Shown here: positions 4,593 to 62,380 of the stretch, piece by piece
Numbering within the stretch: the stretch's first letter is position 1
How the letters are laid out: the number at the start of each line of letters is the position of its first letter
Source: Deroplatys truncata
Taxonomy: Eukaryota > Arthropoda > Insecta > Mantodea > Mantidae
DNA length: 64,000 nt
NCBI GenBank assembly: GCA_030765065.1
Contig: CM060988.1
Span: 203,461,565-203,525,564, forward strand
Direction: 5' to 3'
Translations under genes and position numbers: made by a program
Notes under the pieces: generated by a model
The model's input: the letters and a program-made list of their open reading frames with translations, nothing else
Database searches by the model: none
Told to the model about the DNA's origin: nothing

Positions 4593-5128
4593 GATCACCC
4601 TCTTCCGGTTTGAACCTCAACTTCAGATAATAAGAGGCTACCATGGAGGATGACATCAGAGCTATGTCAATTATAAGGATGGTTTTCAGTGGAAGTTGTT
4701 TCTTCTTCAGCTCTTTTCTCACAGCTGGTACAAATGTTTTGTGGAACCATCGAGAGAATATTTCTCTGTCCATCTACACTTTCTTCTGAGCACAATATTG
4801 CACTAACAGTGTATTCCTTTGGCTGTGTTGAAAACAATATGGATATTGGACTTCCCAATCAGCACGAGCAGTAGTTTATGACTCCCATTGATGTTACATG
4901 CTGTTTCCACTAGCTTCCTTCTCGTTCTTGGCAGCTAATGGTTTTAAAAAAGAGGCCAGTTTCATCAGCAGTTAAATCATCTTCCTCTATTATCTTCTTC
5001 ACAAACTCTTGTGCATCTTTTTTCTTAGCTGAACGACTTTCTCCGGTGACTGCCAGTTGACGCACTCCGTGTCTTTTTTTCAATTTGATAGCCAACCCTT
5101 GCTTGCTGCAGACAAGTTACTGTTTGTT

Positions 5129-5301
5129 GACTAATTTTGAAGATTTAGAAGCTAGTAACAGTGATGTGTCATAATTTAAAATAGAGAGTTGAGAGTTGTT
5201 ACACTACATCACTATGATATTCACTATATATGATATATATGTAGTAAGAATATCATAGTGATGTAGTGTAACAACCCTCAACTCTCTATTTTAAAATAAA
5301 A
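5129..5301. mobile_element. PLE-derived hairpin element, type B
   Basis: An almost perfect palindrome about a centre near 5225: the arms are 'aaaatagagagttgag...ttgttacactacatcactatgatat' and its complement. A one-sided leader 'gaagatttagaagctagtaa' plus 'cagtgatgtgt' precedes the left arm. A direct duplication 'aagttactgtttgtt' flanks it (5114-5128 and 5302-5316; true length 12-15 bp because terminal A's are ambiguous). There is no ORF. It sits inside the Tigger transposase gene. The same type occurs at 58562-58708. Confidence 0.85.
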
Positions 5302-5754
5302 AAGTTACTGTTTGTTAAATGCAACTGCTTTTTCCTTTATTATCGGGCCAGTGAATGGAATTCCTTTGCTGCATTATATGAACCATCTATAAACAACTGC
5401 GTCCAGTTCTTCTTTCTCACTCTTTCGCATAACCTTCCATTTTTCCAACTCGCTCTCCATTTGGCTTGTGTACTGTCGAATAACATCTTCTTTCTTTTTG
5501 ATGTCATAAATAGTTGCTTGTCCAACATTGTACTCTGCAGTAATGTCTTTCTGCAAAGAACCTTGGTTCAACTTATCTAAAACTTGGGCTCTAGCGTAAC
5601 AAGTTTCCTTTTAGAAGCCATGATACTGAGCTGTAAAGGAAGTCACAATTTCAAATATAGCATTGTATAACATTATAATTAACTAACATTGTTGCATGTG
5701 TCATTTCTGCTTGAGTGACTCGAAGCCGGATTAGTGAGAGTTTAGTGTACTTAG

Positions 5755-7242: not shown

Positions 7243-7832
7243 CAGACCTTCAAACTCCACAATTACAATGTTACTTGTTCAATTGCTTATGAAGGACTAC
7301 ATGGCTGTTTACTGCCTCTATTTACAAATTGCCGTGTACAACATCTAAGGGATTATTAGGGTTAGTGTTCCTATAAGGGTCAACAATTCACATTTTCCAA
7401 ATGTACGTATTTTGCACATGAAAGATAGCACAATGGATTTTGTAATGAAAAGAAGCTAGAAACAGTGATGTGTATTGAATTTATTTAAAGGTGAGTCGGA
7501 ATTGTAACACTAACATCACTTAAGTTTACTCACTTAACATGTTTCGGGAAACCGTTGTTCCCATCATCAGAAGGTTAACTCGTCGACTGGCCCGTGTTGT
7601 TGGTGTTTCCGTTTTTTGGACTGGATCCTGTGGTGGCATCTTGTGGTGGAGAAATGTACTTCCAGAGAGGATTTGGTGGCGGCAAATCAAAATTCATTAG
7701 ATGTGTGTTGTGTTTTAGAATGGTGATCTTCTCCCATGCATCTAATTCGGCTGCAAATTTGGCTGGTTTGACTAATGTAATATTGGGTTTGATGTTGTGA
7801 TTAGTGATCCAAAAATGGTGTGAAACTGCAGA

Positions 7833-8366
7833 AAGTTCAAGAAATTCACATACCACCCAAGAACATTTCACAAATTTAAGAAGATTTTCATGAAACATAA
7901 CATCAGCCTAGCTCCACAGAACAAATTTAACATAGAGAAATTACTTTGTAACAAGTTAAAAGACCCCATTCCACAAGACAAAAAAGCTGGAATCTATAAA
8001 ATCAATTGTTCAGATTGCAACAAAGTATACATTGGTAAGACAAAAAGAAACTTAGAAACTAGGCTAAAGGAGCACATGAGATGTATTAAATACAAACAAA
8101 TGGACAAATCTGCAGTTTCACACCATTTTTGGATCACTAATCACAACATCAAACCCAATATTACATTAGTCAAACCAGCCAAATTTGCAGCCGAATTAGA
8201 TGCATGGGAGAAGATCACCATTCTAAAACACAACACACATCTAATGAATTTTGATTTGCCGCCACCAAATCCTCTCTGGAAGTACATTTCTCCACCACAA
8301 GATGCCACCACAGGATCCAGTCCAAAAAACGGAAACACCAACAACACGGGCCAGTCGACGAGTTAA
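7833..8366 (+). CDS. PLE C-terminal region with GIY-YIG endonuclease
   Basis: Open from 7833 (first in-frame ATG at 7890) to TAA at 8364-8366. It starts in the RT-to-nuclease linker with KFKKFTYHPRTFHKFKKIF. The nuclease core is AGIYKINCSDCNKVYIGKTK, with GIY and YIG, followed by RNLETRLKEHM carrying the conserved Arg, and DKSAVSHHFW. It ends in FDLPPPNPLWKY and a Ser/Thr/Asn-rich tail. In PLEs this domain nicks the target to prime reverse transcription. The RT is absent, so this is a 5'-truncated copy and not a functional element, although its nuclease portion is unbroken. The matching left arm encodes the same last 86 residues on the minus strand. Confidence 0.88.
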   Translation, partial: KFKKFTYHPRTFHKFKKIFMKHNISLAPQNKFNIEKLLCNKLKDPIPQDKKAGIYKINCSDCNKVYIGKTKRNLETRLKEHMRCIKYKQMDKSAVSHHFWITNHNIKPNITLVKPAKFAAELDAWEKITILKHNTHLMNFDLPPPNPLWKYISPPQDATTGSSPKNGNTNNTGQSTS

Positions 8367-8367
8367 C

Positions 8368-8405
8368 CTTCTGATGATGGGAACAACGGTTTCCCGAAAC
8401 ATGTT
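8368..8405 (+). ncRNA. Hammerhead-like ribozyme core in PLE 3' region
   Basis: CTGATGA at 8371-8377, then a 5-bp helix (gggaa 8379-8383 with ttccc 8391-8395), then GAAAC at 8396-8400. The inverted twin lies in the left arm at about 7538-7575 on the minus strand. Hammerhead motifs are known in PLE terminal repeats. Here an unpaired T at 8378 departs from the canonical core, and I could not draw a convincing third helix, so activity is uncertain. Confidence 0.45.
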
Positions 8406-8539
8406 AAGTGAGTAAACTTAAGTGATGTTAGTGTTACAATTCCGACTCACCTTTAAATAAATACAATGGATTTTATTAATGTTTCCATGGATTTCGGCCC
8501 AAAATAACTGGAAATTGGCTTTGTTTGTTGTCATACTAA

Positions 8540-9829
8540 AAGGTCTTTCAACAAGAGTGTCCTATCTTTAACATGTGATAGCTGCCGTTGTTATTGAGTT
8601 ACAGCAGTCACTTTTTTCATGTGGTTACAGTTGTTATTGACAAATAGCCATGGAATGTTACAGCATTCAGCAATGGGTAGAAATTGTGAAAATTTATTAT
8701 CAAAATGGATCATCTTTTCGCCAAACCTTCCGTGTATTGCGTAAAGTTTATGGTGTGCATAATTGTCCATGCAAGAGAACGATTCGGCGTTTGATCGATA
8801 AATTTGAAAGAAGTGGTTCTGTCAGTGATCAAAGAACGCCTGTACGTAATTGATGTAAGCGCTCCAACAAAAACACAGGTGCCATTCGTGAGAGTGTATG
8901 CGAGAATGGAAACAAATCCAGTTGCTCATCGAGCGCAAGAATTGGGGCTTTTGCCGACCACAACTTGGTGAATTCTGCATCTGGATTTAAAGTTTCACAC
9001 TTACAAAATGGTGTTAACTCAAGAACTAAAACCCAACAACCATAGGTGGCGCTGTGTATTCGCTGACTGGGCTATGGAGCAATTGGAAGCTGACCCGTAT
9101 TTTTGTCGAAAAATCATCTTCAGCGATGGAACCTGCTTTTGGATGGATGGTTGTGTTAAACAAAAGTGCCGCCATTGGAGCAATCACAATCCAATGCAGA
9201 TTCAAGAACGACCACTTCATCCCCAAAAGGTTACTGTGTGGTGTGGATTTTGGTATGGTGGAATCATTGGTCCATATTTTTTCCAAGATGAAGATGGAGA
9301 AGCTGTAACTGTCAATGGAGAAAGATACCGGGCTCTTATAAGGGACTATTTTTGGCCTCAATTGGATGGTATGGATCTCAGAAACATCTGGTTCCAGCAA
9401 GATGGTGCCACATGTCATACTGCTCTCAAAACAATCAATCTTTTGAAGGAGAAGTTCAGAGGTTTCATCATTTCCCGTGGTGGTGATGTTAACTAGTCAT
9501 GTGATTTAACGCTGTTGGATTACTTCTTGTGAGGTTATGTTAAATCTCGAGTTCATGTCAACAAGCCAGAAACAGTAAATGATCTTGTGAATAACATCAC
9601 GCGTGTTATTCGTGAAGTTGGACCTAATTTACGTTCTTGTGTCATTGAAAATTGGGTCAACCGTATACGCACAACCCAACGAAGTTGCAGTGGTCACTTA
9701 ACTGATGTTCTCTTCCACACGTAATGACATTAATTTTGTTCCAAAATAAAAAAAAGAAATAAATCTCTTATCATTTATAGAACGAGTTTTATTTAGGTTC
9801 AAAAATAGGACATACTTGTTGAAAGACCC
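8540..9829 (+). mobile_element. Mariner-family element, copy 1
   Basis: TIRs read 'aggtctttcaacaagagtgt' on the left and 'gggtctttcaacaagtatgt' inward from the right, with flanking TA at 8538-8539 and 9830-9831. It is about 1290 bp with one transposase gene on the plus strand. A sister copy lies at 26185-27455 in reverse. It inserted into the 5' part of the Tc1-like element. Confidence 0.9.
8650..9724 (+). pseudogene. Mariner-type transposase (possibly DD41D/rosa-like), broken
   Basis: The N-terminal HTH is MECYSIQQWVEIVKIYYQNG, then RKVYGVHNCPCKRTIRRLID. A stop and shift after TPVRN (about 8853) separates it from the catalytic ORF (9008-9496). Catalytic motifs are FSDGTCFWMDG (first Asp), WFQQDGATCHTA (second Asp) and LLDYFL (third Asp). 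The gap from second to third Asp is 38 residues here because WPPR-type residues are missing and a stop stands in their place; the expected gap is about 41. That suggests the DD41D group. The end is TDVLFHT at about 9724. At least three lesions; not functional. Confidence 0.82.
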
Positions 9830-9885
9830 TATACTTGTTAACTAAGGAAACCATAAGTGTTCAAAAACTTTTGAGTAGTCATGTA

Positions 9886-26184: not shown

Positions 26185-27455
26185 AAGGTCTTTCAACAAG
26201 AGTGTCCTATCTTTGAACTTAAATAAAACACATTCTATAAATGATAGAGGGATTATTTCTTTTTTTATTTTGGAACGTAATTAATGTCATTACTTGTGGA
26301 AGAGAACATCAGTAAAGTGATCCCCGCAACCTCGTTGGATTGTGGATATATGGTTGTCCCAATTTTCAATGACAGAAGAACGTAAATTAGATCCAACTTC
26401 ACGAATAACACACGTGATGTTATTCATAAGATCATTTACTGTTTCTGGCTTGTTGACGTAAAATCGAGATTTAACATAACCCCACAAGAAGTAATCCAAC
26501 ATGACCTCAGGGGCAGTTAACATCACCACCCCGGGAAATGATGAAACCTCTGAACTTCTCCTTCAAAAGATAGATTGTTTCAAGAGCAGTATGACATGTG
26601 GCACCATCTTGCTGGAACCAGATGTTTTTGAGATCCATACCATCCAATTGAGTCCAAAAATAGTCCCTTATAAGAGCCCGGTATCTTTCTCCATTGGCAG
26701 TTACAGCTTCTCCATCTTTATCTTGGAAAAAATATGGACCAATGATTCCACCATACCAAAATCCACACCACACAGTAACCTTTTGGGGATGAAGTGGTCG
26801 TTCTTGAATATGCATTGGATTGTGATTGCTCCAATAGCTACAATTTTATTTGTTAACACAACCATCCATCCAAAAGTGGGCTTTGTTGCTGAAGATGATT
26901 TTTCGACAAAAATGCGGGTCAACTTCCAATTGCTCCATAGCACAGTCAGTGAATACACAGCGCAACGTATGGTCATTGGGCTTTAGTTCTTGAGTTAACA
27001 CCATTTTGTAAGCATGAAACTTCAAGTCCAGATGCAGAATTTGCGAAGTTGTGGTCGGCAAAAGCCCCAATTCTTGCGCTCGATGACCAATTGATTTGAT
27101 ACACTCTCACGAACGGCGCCCATGTTTTGTTAGAGCACTTACGTCGATTACGTACAGGCGTTCTTTGATCGCTGACAGAACCACTTCTTTCAAATTTATC
27201 GATCAAATGCCGAATCGTTCTCTTGCACGGACGATTATGCGCACCGTAAACTTCACGCAATACACGGAAGGTTTGGCAAACAGATGATCCATTTTGATAA
27301 TAAATTTTCACAATTTCTACGCATTGCTGAATGCTGTAACGTTCCATGGCTATTTGTCAATAACAACTGTAACCACATGAAAAAAATGACTGCGTAACTC
27401 AATAACAATGGCAGCTATCACATGTTAAAGATAGGACACTCTTGTTGAAAGACCC
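26185..27455 (-). mobile_element. Mariner-family element, copy 2 (of 8540-9829)
   Basis: The left end 'aaggtctttcaacaagagtg' and the right end, inward 'gggtctttcaacaagagtgt', match copy 1. TA lies outside at 26183-26184 and 27456-27457. It is about 1271 bp, inverted relative to copy 1. It sits in the presumed long intron between the exons at 25083 and 33571. Confidence 0.92.
26280..27347 (-). pseudogene. Mariner-type transposase (copy 2), broken
   Basis: The N-terminus MERYSIQQCVEIVKIYYQNG is at 27347. HTH residues KRTIRHLIDKFERSGSVSDQ follow, then NGVNSRTKAQ. The middle ORF reads FSNKAHFWMDGCV, where copy 1 has FSDGTCFW: here the first catalytic Asp is Asn. Then WFQQDGATCHTALETIYLLK (second Asp), and after a shift LDYFLWGYVKSRFYVNKPET (third Asp) to TDVLFHK. 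Reading both copies together shows that each has different lesions. Not functional. Confidence 0.85.
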
Positions 27456-47989: not shown

Positions 47990-48555
47990 AAAGAGATAAA
48001 GCTAAAGCGGTTTGAAACACTTCTGCTCCACTTACTTGTCACTATATCAGAACATGTTTTTGAGGAGCACATCATCCTCAGCATCAGCTGATTGGTTGGC
48101 TGGCTCTTGCATAGTGTCTGCCTTCCCTTTCCCTCGTTCGGCCCTCTATCAATTCTATTGACAAGTCGTATGCTGCCGTCCGATTTTTGTATTTTGAAAT
48201 TCATGACTCTATTTGAATTCTTGATAAACAACAAACAGAAAAATCAGCCATAGTTCACCGTTTTTGGTTACACAATCATACGTCAGCTCAATAAAACTCA
48301 CCAAGAATCATTTGCAATTAATACTGTGTGAGAATATGTACATTATCAAGAATTCAAATAGGGTCGTGAACTTTTAAATATTGGCATTGGTTGACAGGAA
48401 CGATAGCGGGTTGAACAATGGGGGAACGGGAAGACAGACACCATGCGAGAGCCAGTCGACCAACCAGCTGATGAGGACGTGCTCCTTGAAACACATTCTG
48501 GAATAGTGACAAGTAAGTGGAGGAAAAGTGTTTTGAAAGCTGATCAACCATTTTA
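47990..48555. mobile_element. PLE fold-back with hammerhead-like cores
   Basis: The arms (about 48005-48230 and 48345-48550) are inverted copies, diverged but aligned throughout, with a spacer of about 115 bp. The right arm, plus strand, has CTGATGA at 48468-48474, a gga/tcc helix and GAAAC at 48488-48492. The left arm has the degenerate twin on the minus strand. The 3' ends point outward. There is no coding sequence. A duplication at the edges was not found. Confidence 0.7.
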
Positions 48556-56254: not shown

Positions 56255-57210
56255 GCGTGTCCAGGCTATATGTTTAACATTACAAAGTTTTTATAACTTT
56301 AATGTGATTAGTAGGTCTCTTATTATTGATGATTGCAACAATGAGAATGTGCAAAGATGGCGACGTGGTCACAATGTCAGAAGGTTTTCTGTGCTCTTGG
56401 AATGGCTAAAACAAAATCTGTGAAGCATGTACAACAAAATTTTCACCATGAATTTAACCTTTACTGTGATGACGATGTCCCCTCTTATGTAAGCATTATG
56501 AAATGGGACAGTTTTCATTAGTGCACACCACACATTTAATTTTGGTGAGTCCCTTTTGAGTTCATGAAACACCCCAGATACGACAATTATGTCTGTTAAC
56601 TTTCCCATTCACATGGAAAGTTGCTTCATCAGAGAAGCACACTTTATCCAGGAAAACACTGCGGCGAATGTCTTGTTTGTTTTTGTGCAGGTGTAACTGA
56701 ATCTTATAGGTCTGGAACATAATCTTTTGTGGACTGCATCATGAACCTTAGACCGAGGAATGGCAAGTTCTATACTGGCATGTCGAATTGACTTCTTTGG
56801 GTTTCTTACGAAGGCAATATGAATCCTTTCTACAGACATGTTCCGTTTGCTGTGTGTTCCATGTGTAGACAAAAGACTACCAGTTATTCGTAACTGTCTG
56901 TCTCATTTCATAATGCTTGCTTAGGAGGGGACATTGTCGTGACGGCAAAGTTAAATTCATGGCGAAAATTTCTTTGTACACGCTATACAGATTTTCTATC
57001 AGCCATTCCAAGGACACAAGAAACCTTCTGTTATGATGTCCATGTTGCCATCTTTGCACATTCTAATGTAACCTAATAGTGGAACATTGTTGCAATCATA
57101 AATGGCAAGAGGCATACCAATCATATTGTCTTTTTTTTTTATCTGGATCTGATACACCTAAAGTTATAAAAGTTTGTAATCTCAAACATATAGGCTGGAC
57201 ACCCTGTGTG
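56255..57210 (-). mobile_element. Non-autonomous IS630/mariner-type element with long TIRs
   Basis: The two ends are inverted copies over roughly 260 bp: about 56255-56515 and 56893-57210, the right one slightly longer. The outermost match is 'gtgtccag(g/c)ctatatgttt' and the inner match starts 'atgtgcaaagatgg'. TA lies next to both ends (56253-56254, 57211-57212). The middle (56520-56880) holds only a transposase remnant. Confidence 0.8.
56530..56872 (-). pseudogene. Transposase HTH remnant in the long-TIR element
   Basis: From 56840 down it reads MSVERIHIAFVRNPKKSIRH, then [20 protein letters not shown], the second half of an IS630/mariner DNA-binding domain (family form SVERVRQTFLRSPKKSTRRA). 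Then comes [12 protein letters not shown]-type sequence in another frame, and [17 protein letters not shown] runs into the left TIR. The catalytic centre past that point is missing, so an internal deletion created this short element. Confidence 0.75.
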
Positions 57211-57792: not shown

Positions 57793-57903
57793 ATATATAC
57801 AGAGTGTCATGCAACTTTTTTTCTTTCCTTCCTTAACCTTGGCACAGGAAAATAAACACTTTTTGTTAGGAAACCAAAAGACTGAATAAATAGCATTAAA
57901 TTA

Positions 57904-58063
57904 CGTTGATATTGTAATGAAAAGAAGCTAGAAACAGTGATGTGTATTGAATTTATTTAAAGGTGAGTCGGAATTGTTACACTAACATCACTTAAGTTTA
58001 CTCACTTAAGTGAGTAAACTTAAGTGATGTTAGTGTAACAATTCCGACTCACCTTTAAATAAA
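57904..58063. mobile_element. PLE-derived hairpin element, type A
   Basis: A perfect-looking palindrome ('tttatttaaaggtgagtcgg...' and its complement) is centred at 'ctcacttaagtgag' near 58010. The one-sided leader 'gtaatgaaaagaagctagaa' is shared with the 7442 fold-back. A 12-bp duplication (agcattaaatta) lies at 57892-57903 and 58064-58075. The arms are the last 55 bp or so of the PLE at 7442-8462, so this is that element reduced to its 3' tail. Confidence 0.88.
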
Positions 58064-58078
58064 AGCATTAAATTAGTT

Positions 58079-58462
58079 GGCGGCGCCGTGGCCGAGCGGT
58101 TAGACCGCTCGCCTCCCACCAAAGCAGCCCGGGTTCAATCCCAGGGACCTGCATGTGGGATTTGTGGTGGACGAAGCGGCGTCTGGGCGGGTTTTCTCCG
58201 GGTTCTCCGGTTTCCCCCGCCATTCATTCCACCAACTGCTCCATCATCACCTTTCCTTTCATACATTTCACCAACATTTCGTTTCATCTACTTCCTTCAT
58301 CCCATACCAGGCATCGGGCTGATCACCCATCCTGGATGTTCTGTCTGATCCATGAGTGTCTGCTCCTCGACGGGCCTCTGACCCCAGGCACCCGCTTGTA
58401 AGTCCTGGGGGGTGTAAGTCCTACATAAGAGGAGGGTAAACAGATAATGAATGAATGAATGA
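58079..58462 (+). mobile_element. tRNA-derived SINE-2, full length
   Basis: The head 'ccgtggccgagcggttagac' (A box, Leu/Ser-tRNA-like) and 'cccgggttcaatccc' (B box) give a pol III promoter. A body with 'gggttttctccgggttctcc' follows, then a (TGAA)n tail at 58446-58462. A 12-bp duplication (attaaattagtt) flanks it at 58067-58078 and 58463-58474. Its left duplication overlaps the hairpin's duplication, so it inserted after the hairpin. It is G+C-rich compared with all neighbours. The ORFs through it are accidental. Confidence 0.92.
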
Positions 58463-58561
58463 ATTAAATTAGTTCTGATGATCGCCTACTACTCATAAGG
58501 TTAGTTAAACTTTGTAAGTAAATGTTAACAAAATTAACCAAGAATGAAGTTGTCTAAATAA

Positions 58562-58708
58562 TTTAAAATAGAGAGTTGAGGGTTGTTACACTACATCACT
58601 ATGATAGTGATTGTTGTTGTTGTTAGTGATAGTGTAACAACCCTCAACTCTCTATTTTAAATTATGACACATCACTGTTACAAGCTTCTAAATCTTCAAA
58701 AATTGAGC
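58562..58708. mobile_element. PLE-derived hairpin element, type B, inverted
   Basis: Arms 'aaaatagagagttgagggtt' and complement, with a short (TTG)n loop near 58609-58620. The leader ('gaagatttagaagcttgtaa' in reverse complement) is on the right, so the element is inverted relative to 5129. A 12-bp duplication (ttgtctaaataa) lies at 58550-58561 and 58709-58720. No ORF. Confidence 0.88.
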
Positions 58709-58720
58709 TTGTCTAAATAA

Positions 58721-60659: not shown

Positions 60660-62380
60660 GAGTTACTTACTACAAATACACTTGATGAAAGTGGAGTCAA
60701 CCTAAACACCCTTAATAGCTTCACTCACCTATTTATTTTGCAGAACATGTATCGTGAGCATAAGCTCACATCATCAGCTGCCTGTTGGATCGACTGTTGA
60801 GTCATATTGATGAAATGTTGGGTGTTCTCTGGTGACCTATGGATGAAACTAAATAGAGGGTTGTCTGTTTCTGGCAAATCAAAGTTCATGATGCAGTTTT
60901 CAAACTTCTTTATATAAATCTTCTCCCATACTTCAAGCTCTGGGTTTTTGGGTTGGGTTCAGCAACTGGATACTGGTGTCTATTTCATGGTTTTGAGTCC
61001 AAAAGTGAAAAGCAACTGCTGATTTGTTGGTCTGTTTGAACTTTGTGCAACGCTGGCGTTCTTGAAGTAGGTGCATAAGTTCCTTTTTGTTTTTCTGATG
61101 TAAACCTTATCGCAATTTTCACATTGGATCTGGTAGATTCGTGACTTTTTGTTCTGGGGTTGTCTGGGATGGACAACTTGGAGTTATCCATGTTGCCGAG
61201 TTGTCCATGTTGAAGTTAGCCAGAATATATAGCCTCCCCAAAATCTGCCAGCTCTGAACAACATGAGGCTGATCATCCATTAAATAAACGCTCCCTCTTA
61301 TCGCCTTGCCAGCTGGTTGTTTCACCAATTTCAAGCATTGCCACAGCATCAGAAACTCCCTATATGTTCAAAGTGTGGTATAGATACGCTGATGACATAT
61401 TTGCAATAGTAAAACACAAACACACAGAGGACAACTCTCAAGCTTTTAAACTTACAGAACCTATCCATTCAATTCACAATGGAGATAGCTACCGACAACT
61501 CCTTAGCTTTCCTGGACCTCAAATTAATGAAGATTTCAGACAGGATAGAATTCGGAATACATAGAAAACCCATGCATACAGATAATTCCATCAAAGCACA
61601 CAAAGAAGCAGCATTCAACAGCATGGCTCACAGATTAATCAACATCCCCCTCAACAGAAATGAATAGTACAAAGAATATCAACACATTGTAAAATCTGCA
61701 GTAGAGAATGGATTCAGCCAGGAAATGTAGATAGGAAAATACGTAAATTCAAAAGACAAAAATGCATCAAGCAGGTGACCACACTTTCTAACACAGCAGA
61801 AAAGATCAACTTCAGTAAATTCACATACCACCCAGGTTTCTCAAAAATTTTAGAAAATATTCAAGAATCACAACATTATCCTGACACCTTGCAACAAATT
61901 TAGCATCAATCTCATTAAAGCAAGAAAATCTGATCCCATACACCAGGACAAAAAGTCAGGAATCTACTGGATCCAATGTGAAAATTGCAAGAAGGTTTCC
62001 ATTGAAAAAACACAAAGGAACATGGCATCCGCTTCAAGAAACACCAGCGCTGCGTAAAGCTCAAACAGACCGACAAATCAGCAGTTATTGAAACCACTCC
62101 AAAAACCCAAAGAGCTTGAAATATGGGAGATGATTTACATAAAGGAGTTTGAAAACCGCATCATGAACTTTGATTTACCAGAAGCAGACAACCCTCTATT
62201 TAGTTTCATCCATAGGCCACCAGAAGACACCCCAGGCTTTCAACAATACAACTCAAGAGTTGGTTTGACAGTCAACAGCTGCCCATGCTCACGATACATG
62301 TTCAGCAAAATAAATAGATGAGTGAAGCTAGTAAGAGTGTTTATGTTGATTCCACTTTCATCAAGTGTATTTTATTAATT
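60660..62380. mobile_element. Inverted PLE pair with RT and GIY-YIG remnants
   Basis: The left copy is on the minus strand (about 61200 down to 60660), the right on plus (about 61346 to 62380). Each ends with 'gtgaagct(a)...ttgattccactttcatcaag'-type sequence, outward. The left arm has a terminal motif CTGATGA (complement of 60771-60777), a tgagc/gctca helix and GATAC in place of GAAAC. The right copy is longer and includes RT. A short unrelated or rearranged segment joins them (61200-61346). Many stops; old. Confidence 0.82.
61350..62250 (+). pseudogene. PLE reverse transcriptase C-terminal half and GIY-YIG region, broken
   Basis: VWYRYADDIFAIVKHKHTED carries the RT catalytic YADD box. In the next frame come TDNSLAFLDLKLMKISDRIE, then FGIHRKPMHTDNSIKAHKEA and AFNSMAHRLINIPLNRNE, the PLE RT thumb region. 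Then FSKFTYHPGFSKI is the linker also seen at 7833. The nuclease GIY block is frameshifted (SGIYWIQCENCKK-like near 61960). After it come LEIWEMIYIKEFENRIMNFD and LPEADNPLFSFIHRPPED. This is the only RT sequence of a PLE in the window. Not functional. Confidence 0.85.

Follow-up and report, generated by a model that had tools for sequence, protein, structure and literature searches.

Several features of the insertions considered here are already known for PLEs, as far as the accessible parts of the two reports describe them: the inverted pLTR, the tail, the target duplication and the palindromic junction (PMC3846280, PMC11167929). In Pen2a and other PLEs of Adineta vaga, as at the locus described below, pLTRs lie adjacent and inverted, a target duplication is present and palindromes occur at the inverted junction; there a 31-bp tail is optional on one inverted pLTR, compared with a tail of 38–48 bp and duplications of 12–15 bp here (PMC3846280). 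For PLEs more generally, the optional tail is given as 30–40 bp (PMC11167929). In vitro, the enzyme of Poseidon PAc of Anolis carolinensis both cleaves the two target strands and extends them, with two adjacent internal RT starts and the tail between them; the later steps of PLE insertion are described in the available text as yet to be validated (PMC11167929). Hammerheads of PLEs are characterized as minimal forms that have no helix III (PMC7761336, PMC6155905), and their role in these elements is stated as unknown (PMC7761336). The Anolis hammerhead cleaved only in the presence of protein, and the accessible part of the same study reports that PAc hammerhead mutants inserted normally and that no reads ended at the cut (PMC11167929).

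Here, we describe three non-coding hairpin elements (A, B1 and B2) and one related coding PLE copy (C) in a 64,000-nucleotide stretch of DNA from the mantis Deroplatys truncata, referred to as the window (Table 1). We consider it probable that the hairpins are of PLE origin and are minimal insertions made by two-sided target-primed reverse transcription, in which both strands of the target would be cut, both would prime cDNA on PLE RNA, and the two cDNAs would be joined.

Hairpin elements and their coding relative

The three hairpins are near-perfect palindromes. Their palindrome scores of 56 (A), 45 (B1) and 36 (B2) are the top three in the window when loops of up to ~60 are allowed, the fourth being 18, whereas 30 random sequences generated from a first-order Markov model of the window reached no more than 15 (mean 11.8). 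Every position of the 56-nt arms of A is paired, and the DNA fold of this element reaches -61.2 kcal/mol (z -20.6). B1 has an AT-rich, partly self-complementary centre and an ungapped loop of 25; with gaps allowed, its fold becomes a near-complete palindrome with a 5-nt loop. B2, the left arm of which has its outer 4 bases in common with its target duplication, has arms of 36 nt and an ungapped loop of 36, with a 3-nt loop inside the gapped fold, and its centre is a trinucleotide repeat unrelated to the centre of B1. Types A and B can be aligned along both arm and tail.

Table 1. Hairpin elements, the coding PLE copy and associated features, in window coordinates
Feature	Length	Coordinates	Strand	Details
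Hairpin element A	160 bp	57904..58063	.	tail 57904-57951; arms 57952-58007 and 58008-58063; loop 0
A target duplication, left copy AGCATTAAATTA	12 bp	57892..57903	+	exact
A target duplication, right copy		58064..58075	+	overlaps the left duplication (58067-58078) of the adjoining SINE-like repeat
Hairpin element B1	173 bp	5129..5301	.	tail 5129-5174; arms 5175-5222 and 5248-5295
B1 target duplication	15 bp	left 5114..5128; right 5302-5316	+	exact
Hairpin element B2	147 bp	58562..58708	-	opposite orientation; tail 58666-58708; arms 58558-58593 and 58630-58665
B2 target duplication	12 bp	left 58550..58561; right 58709-58720	+	exact
Coding PLE copy C, 5'-truncated	1021 bp	7442..8462	+	inverted arms 7474-7832 and 8109-8467; tail 7442-7479
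C target duplications	12 bp	7430-7441 and 8463-8474		exact
Open frame with GIY-YIG endonuclease domain		7824..8366	+	PF01541, 28 bits (Pfam cut-off 22.6)
Predicted minimal hammerhead ribozyme of the PLE		8356..8425, core 8371-8400	+	motif and stems; predicted cut between 8405 and 8406
Second copy of the predicted hammerhead, in the inverted arm of C		core 7541-7570	-	

All four elements are flanked by target duplications, and for none of the four flank pairs did any of 1000 single-base shuffles equal the one observed. Summed by hand, 40 of the 51 duplicated bases are A or T, as against 64% for the window. With up to 3 mismatches allowed, the leader motif AGAAGCTAGWAACAGTGATGTGT is found at four sites in the window, a single one in each element and on one side only, compared with none in 100 shuffles. 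This leader is the published PLE "tail". It measures 48 nt in A, 46 in B1, 43 in B2 and 38 in C, and lies on exactly one side in 4/4 elements, coding copy included, while in each of the four the untailed arm terminates at the corresponding A+T-rich stretch. As the tail of A exceeds that of C by 10 bases beside the duplication, the outer RT start seems to be variable.

The coding copy has the same architecture as the hairpins (tail, inverted arms and target duplication) with longer arms, which are paired at 358 of 359 positions and whose last 5 bases extend into the duplication. Hairpin A and the 3' end of C agree in 55 of 56 bases. The sole difference is a variant that reads GTGTAAC in both arms of A and GTGTTAC in both arms of C; because it is shared by the arms within each element, both arms of one element derive from one template lineage, and A was not copied directly from C. 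A GIY-YIG domain is present in the coding relative, and all four elements show an inverted pLTR with a one-sided tail as well as a target duplication. A domain search of the one frame of C of at least 120 aa returned no RT family, telomerase-like RT included; hence we class the hairpins as insertions derived from PLEs rather than full PLEs.

A preliminary description of this DNA had reported three almost pure palindromes, direct duplications of 12–15 bp, a conserved leader on one side only, and the identity of type A with the 3' end of a coding PLE at 7442. Our results bear out each of these observations: the palindrome scores lie well above the ≤15 of the random sequences, the duplications are exact at 12 (A), 15 (B1) and 12 (B2) bp, the leader occurs once per element, and the match to C is nearly complete. 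It had also proposed that the hairpins originate from PLE 3' ends and were placed by the nuclease and RT of a PLE; the derivation is supported by the GIY-YIG domain, tail, arms and duplication of C, and placement by that nuclease and RT is most likely.

Other repeats are present in the window. Adjoining A is a SINE-like repeat (58079-58462), recognized by eye from its tRNA-like start and (AATG)n end and flanked by ATTAAATTAGTT at 58067-58078 and 58463-58474; its duplication overlaps that of the hairpin, so the two insertions share a target. We considered whether this repeat marks a partial empty site for A, and dropped the idea because either order of insertion yields the same sequence. Two transposon-like stretches (26187-27454 and 8537-9833) have similar terminal inverted repeats of 28–33 nt, the former with a DUF4817 helix-turn-helix frame, and long imperfect inverted repeats occur at 60674-62372 and 56301-57127 (81–93% in the pieces listed). 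A further region, 48015-48533, combines inverted repeat pieces (87%) with a hammerhead-like motif, CTGATGAGGACG...GAAAC, at 48468-48492, and may be another decayed element.

Proposed two-sided insertion and the predicted hammerhead cut

In the proposed mechanism, the GIY-YIG/RT protein of a PLE would cut an AT-rich site on both strands, at positions staggered by 12–15 nt, as suggested by the duplications. Both 3' ends would then prime cDNA on PLE RNA from two different starts: an inner one at the AAATAAA end of type A and another ~38–48 nt downstream, which would leave the tail on one side only. The ends in question can be read from the elements themselves, and the two-start rule is that published for the Anolis PLE. 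Each cDNA would extend as far as the 5' end of the RNA, and the pair would then be linked head to head, almost or entirely without a spacer, creating the palindrome. A long RNA would give rise to a copy such as C and a short RNA to a pLTR stub alone; for A, the template might have been ribozyme-cut RNA. The one-sided tail, together with an untailed end at an A+T-rich stretch, is as expected if priming takes place on both sides from two start sites. The hairpin products themselves are probably dead ends.

Upstream of its hairpin-forming part, C carries a predicted hammerhead with the letters CTGATGA-T-GGGAA...TTCCC-GAAAC-AT-GTT/AAG (the slash marks the cut). Its Anolis counterpart is CTGAGGA-T-stem II-GAAAC-GTC/AGG, cut 26 nt after the start codon (PMC11167929). 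The position of the cut in the window was set by the Anolis layout, using a script that reproduces the published Anolis cut at that distance. The layout is like that of PAc in its extra U after A9, its short or absent helix III and its GUH cut; the main RT start of PAc lies 82–89 nt after the cut (PMC11167929), and in the window 57 nt separate the cut from the untailed end. Among the four elements a hammerhead query matched C only, at 8331-8400 and 7541-7610, and was absent from the three hairpins. The pattern CTGANGA...GAAAC has 6 matches in the window, two of them those of C and another the one at 48468, versus a mean of 0.67 in shuffles. Rfam called no hammerhead in the window's candidate, and the minimum-energy fold of the isolated C segment is not a hammerhead. 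A stem I of at least 3 pairs at the expected register was found in 10 of 24 rows (the 22 loci described below, Anolis and the window), chance loci included, so stem I by itself is weak evidence for a hammerhead. Just past the predicted cut of C, GTGAGT (8408-8413) resembles a 5' splice site, as does GTAAGA at the homologous place of B1, near 5242-5247; some PLEs have introns.

Further copies and hammerhead loci were sought in two contig collections, viral_contigs and genome_contigs, which hold viral and prokaryotic contigs, such that a null result there says nothing about the host. The tail pattern had no match in either collection, and the B and A pLTR ends had none in viral_contigs; 4 pattern matches to the GIY-YIG protein in viral_contigs were rejected, none being a relative by tblastn. 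With a general hammerhead pattern, 20 loci were obtained from genome_contigs and another 3 from viral_contigs, and the motif was re-found by script in 22 of these 23, the locus missed (L005) containing N letters. At E 0.1, no relative of the GIY-YIG frame is encoded at any of the 23, and their matches to the four elements did not fall below E 0.069. Only two of the 22, L011 (107-139) and L017 (62-95), combine a stem II of at least 5 pairs with a stem I of at least 3 at the expected cut; a third, L012, has 6 pairs in stem II and 1 in stem I. Both L011 and L017 present a PLE-type hammerhead motif near the contig start, with stems II and I in the register of C and stem letters that differ from those of C (CCTC/GAGG, ACTC/GAGT). 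Upstream of its motif, L011 has an inverted repeat of 25 nt (88%, at 1-59) unrelated to A or B. Near the L017 motif no inverted repeat was found; a tRNA-like repeat lies beside it. The two records belong to bacterial bins named Nt197P3, which we take to be from termite gut, and the first part of L017, eukaryotic-looking in our reading, may be host DNA that was misbinned or joined in a chimera.

The right arm of A begins with AAGTGAG, the first bases past the predicted cut in C, and its junction is blunt. The centre of A therefore coincides with the predicted cut, with an uncertainty of ±2 nt since TTAA is self-complementary. Calculated by hand, such a match would arise by chance with a probability of 5/57 for ends placed at random along the 57-nt arm, or 5/635 for the longer arm of C (635 nt). 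The other two hairpins do not repeat it. As read from alignment and fold, the template of B1 reaches ~8 nt upstream of the homologous cut position, and that of B2 would stop ~13 nt downstream of it if the trinucleotide stretch is a later insertion. The two template ends thus appear to differ, so that at most one of them could be a ribozyme end of a single B template.

Hammerhead self-cleavage could set the 5' end of the PLE RNA that is inserted, in which case two cDNAs from both target strands would meet at the cut, and bare hairpins centred there would be an in vivo footprint of the ribozyme. We offer this step tentatively and regard it as rather doubtful; seen in one of three hairpins, it is only a lead. 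There is close to, if not quite, an even chance that insertion was two-sided but that the short arms reflect ordinary RT stops or RNA breaks, the match between A and the cut being coincidental. The two different places at which B1 and B2 end in our reading agree with coincidence, as does the finding that the hammerhead is dispensable for insertion in vitro (PMC11167929), whereas the blunt junction of A falls at the exact predicted cut, and 55 of the next 56 bases match C.

Other possible origins for the hairpins

A different origin for the second arm has been proposed for the Penelope palindromes of A. vaga, where palindromes at inverted junctions are interpreted as the work of one cDNA that folds back and copies itself (PMC3846280). 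Private variants common to both arms of A, and to both arms of C, would suit such self-priming, and the loops in the gapped folds of B1 (5 nt) and B2 (3 nt) would permit it, although they are compatible with either two cDNAs or fold-back priming. A cDNA folding back on itself should, however, leave a loop, and that of A is zero. Moreover, in 4/4 elements the second arm ends short of the tail, whereas a strand copied by fold-back should include the tail and go on into the target. These two observations are better accommodated by two separate cDNAs joined at their ends, and we consider self-priming unlikely here.

The preliminary description had likened the hairpins to parasites that use a PLE as a SINE uses a LINE, that is, to a family whose transcripts the PLE enzyme would copy in trans over generations. 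Three copies of two types within 64 kb, each with its own duplication and a PLE tail, would be in keeping with such a family, and in A. vaga the pLTRs of PLEs can carry foreign cargo in trans (PMC3846280). Yet B1 and B2 have unrelated centres and, in our reading, different template ends, suggesting that they are not copies of one hairpin but separate events from PLE RNA. A 56-bp hairpin in RNA would also be expected to obstruct copying. Furthermore, in one PLE that has been studied the template must include RNA lying downstream of the RT starts: the Anolis PLE depends on the first 172 nt of the ORF, which extend past the RT start at 111–118 (PMC11167929). If this requirement extends to the present elements, a hairpin insertion, which ends at the RT starts, would be without that RNA. 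ARAGORN detected no tRNA in the segment 57850-58500, which of the hairpins includes A alone; the result says little, as the program also misses the tRNA-like head of the adjoining repeat. Accordingly, of the earlier proposal we retain the derivation from PLEs and the separate duplications; the parasite family we think improbable, the more so as its leader and inverted pLTRs were already published, and separate by-products of PLE insertion are the favoured reading. Lastly, MITEs or foldback DNA transposons would account for inverted repeats with flanking duplications, but with duplications of varying length (12, 15 and 12 bp) in place of a fixed one, a one-sided tail in place of symmetric ends, and a match between A and the end of the GIY-YIG-coding copy that already contradicts it, this origin is scarcely credible.

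Comparison with known systems

The preliminary description knew of no described family of this form. In the literature accessible to our search, we likewise found no description of bare inverted pLTR-stub pairs without ORF or cargo, or of a centre at a ribozyme cut; the tail, the inverted pLTRs and the palindromic junctions had all been published. The A. vaga inserts hold an ORF, cargo or other captured sequence, with solo pLTRs also mentioned (PMC3846280), whereas the insertions in the window consist of the inverted pLTR stub pair only.

Minimal insertions with readable ends, tail and centre provide a direct test of PLE insertion. Should centres pile up at the cut across a genome and the tail always lie on one arm only, sequence data by themselves would lend support to two-sided priming as well as to ribozyme-cut RNA being used in vivo. 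A mechanistic parallel is Poseidon PAc, in which both strands are cut and extended and two adjacent RT starts define the tail. PAc is an in vitro system in which the ribozyme cut was unneeded for insertion, and no hairpin insertions are described in the available part of the report (PMC11167929). Metazoan non-LTR retrozymes differ in structure, being tandem repeats that contain a ribozyme, whereas the hairpins are inverted and have none, and we do not class them as retrozymes; nevertheless, retrozymes are likewise small and non-coding, PLEs have been proposed as their movers, and the size of their RNA is set by hammerhead cuts, to which the hairpins described here may be likened (PMC7229834, in its accessible part).
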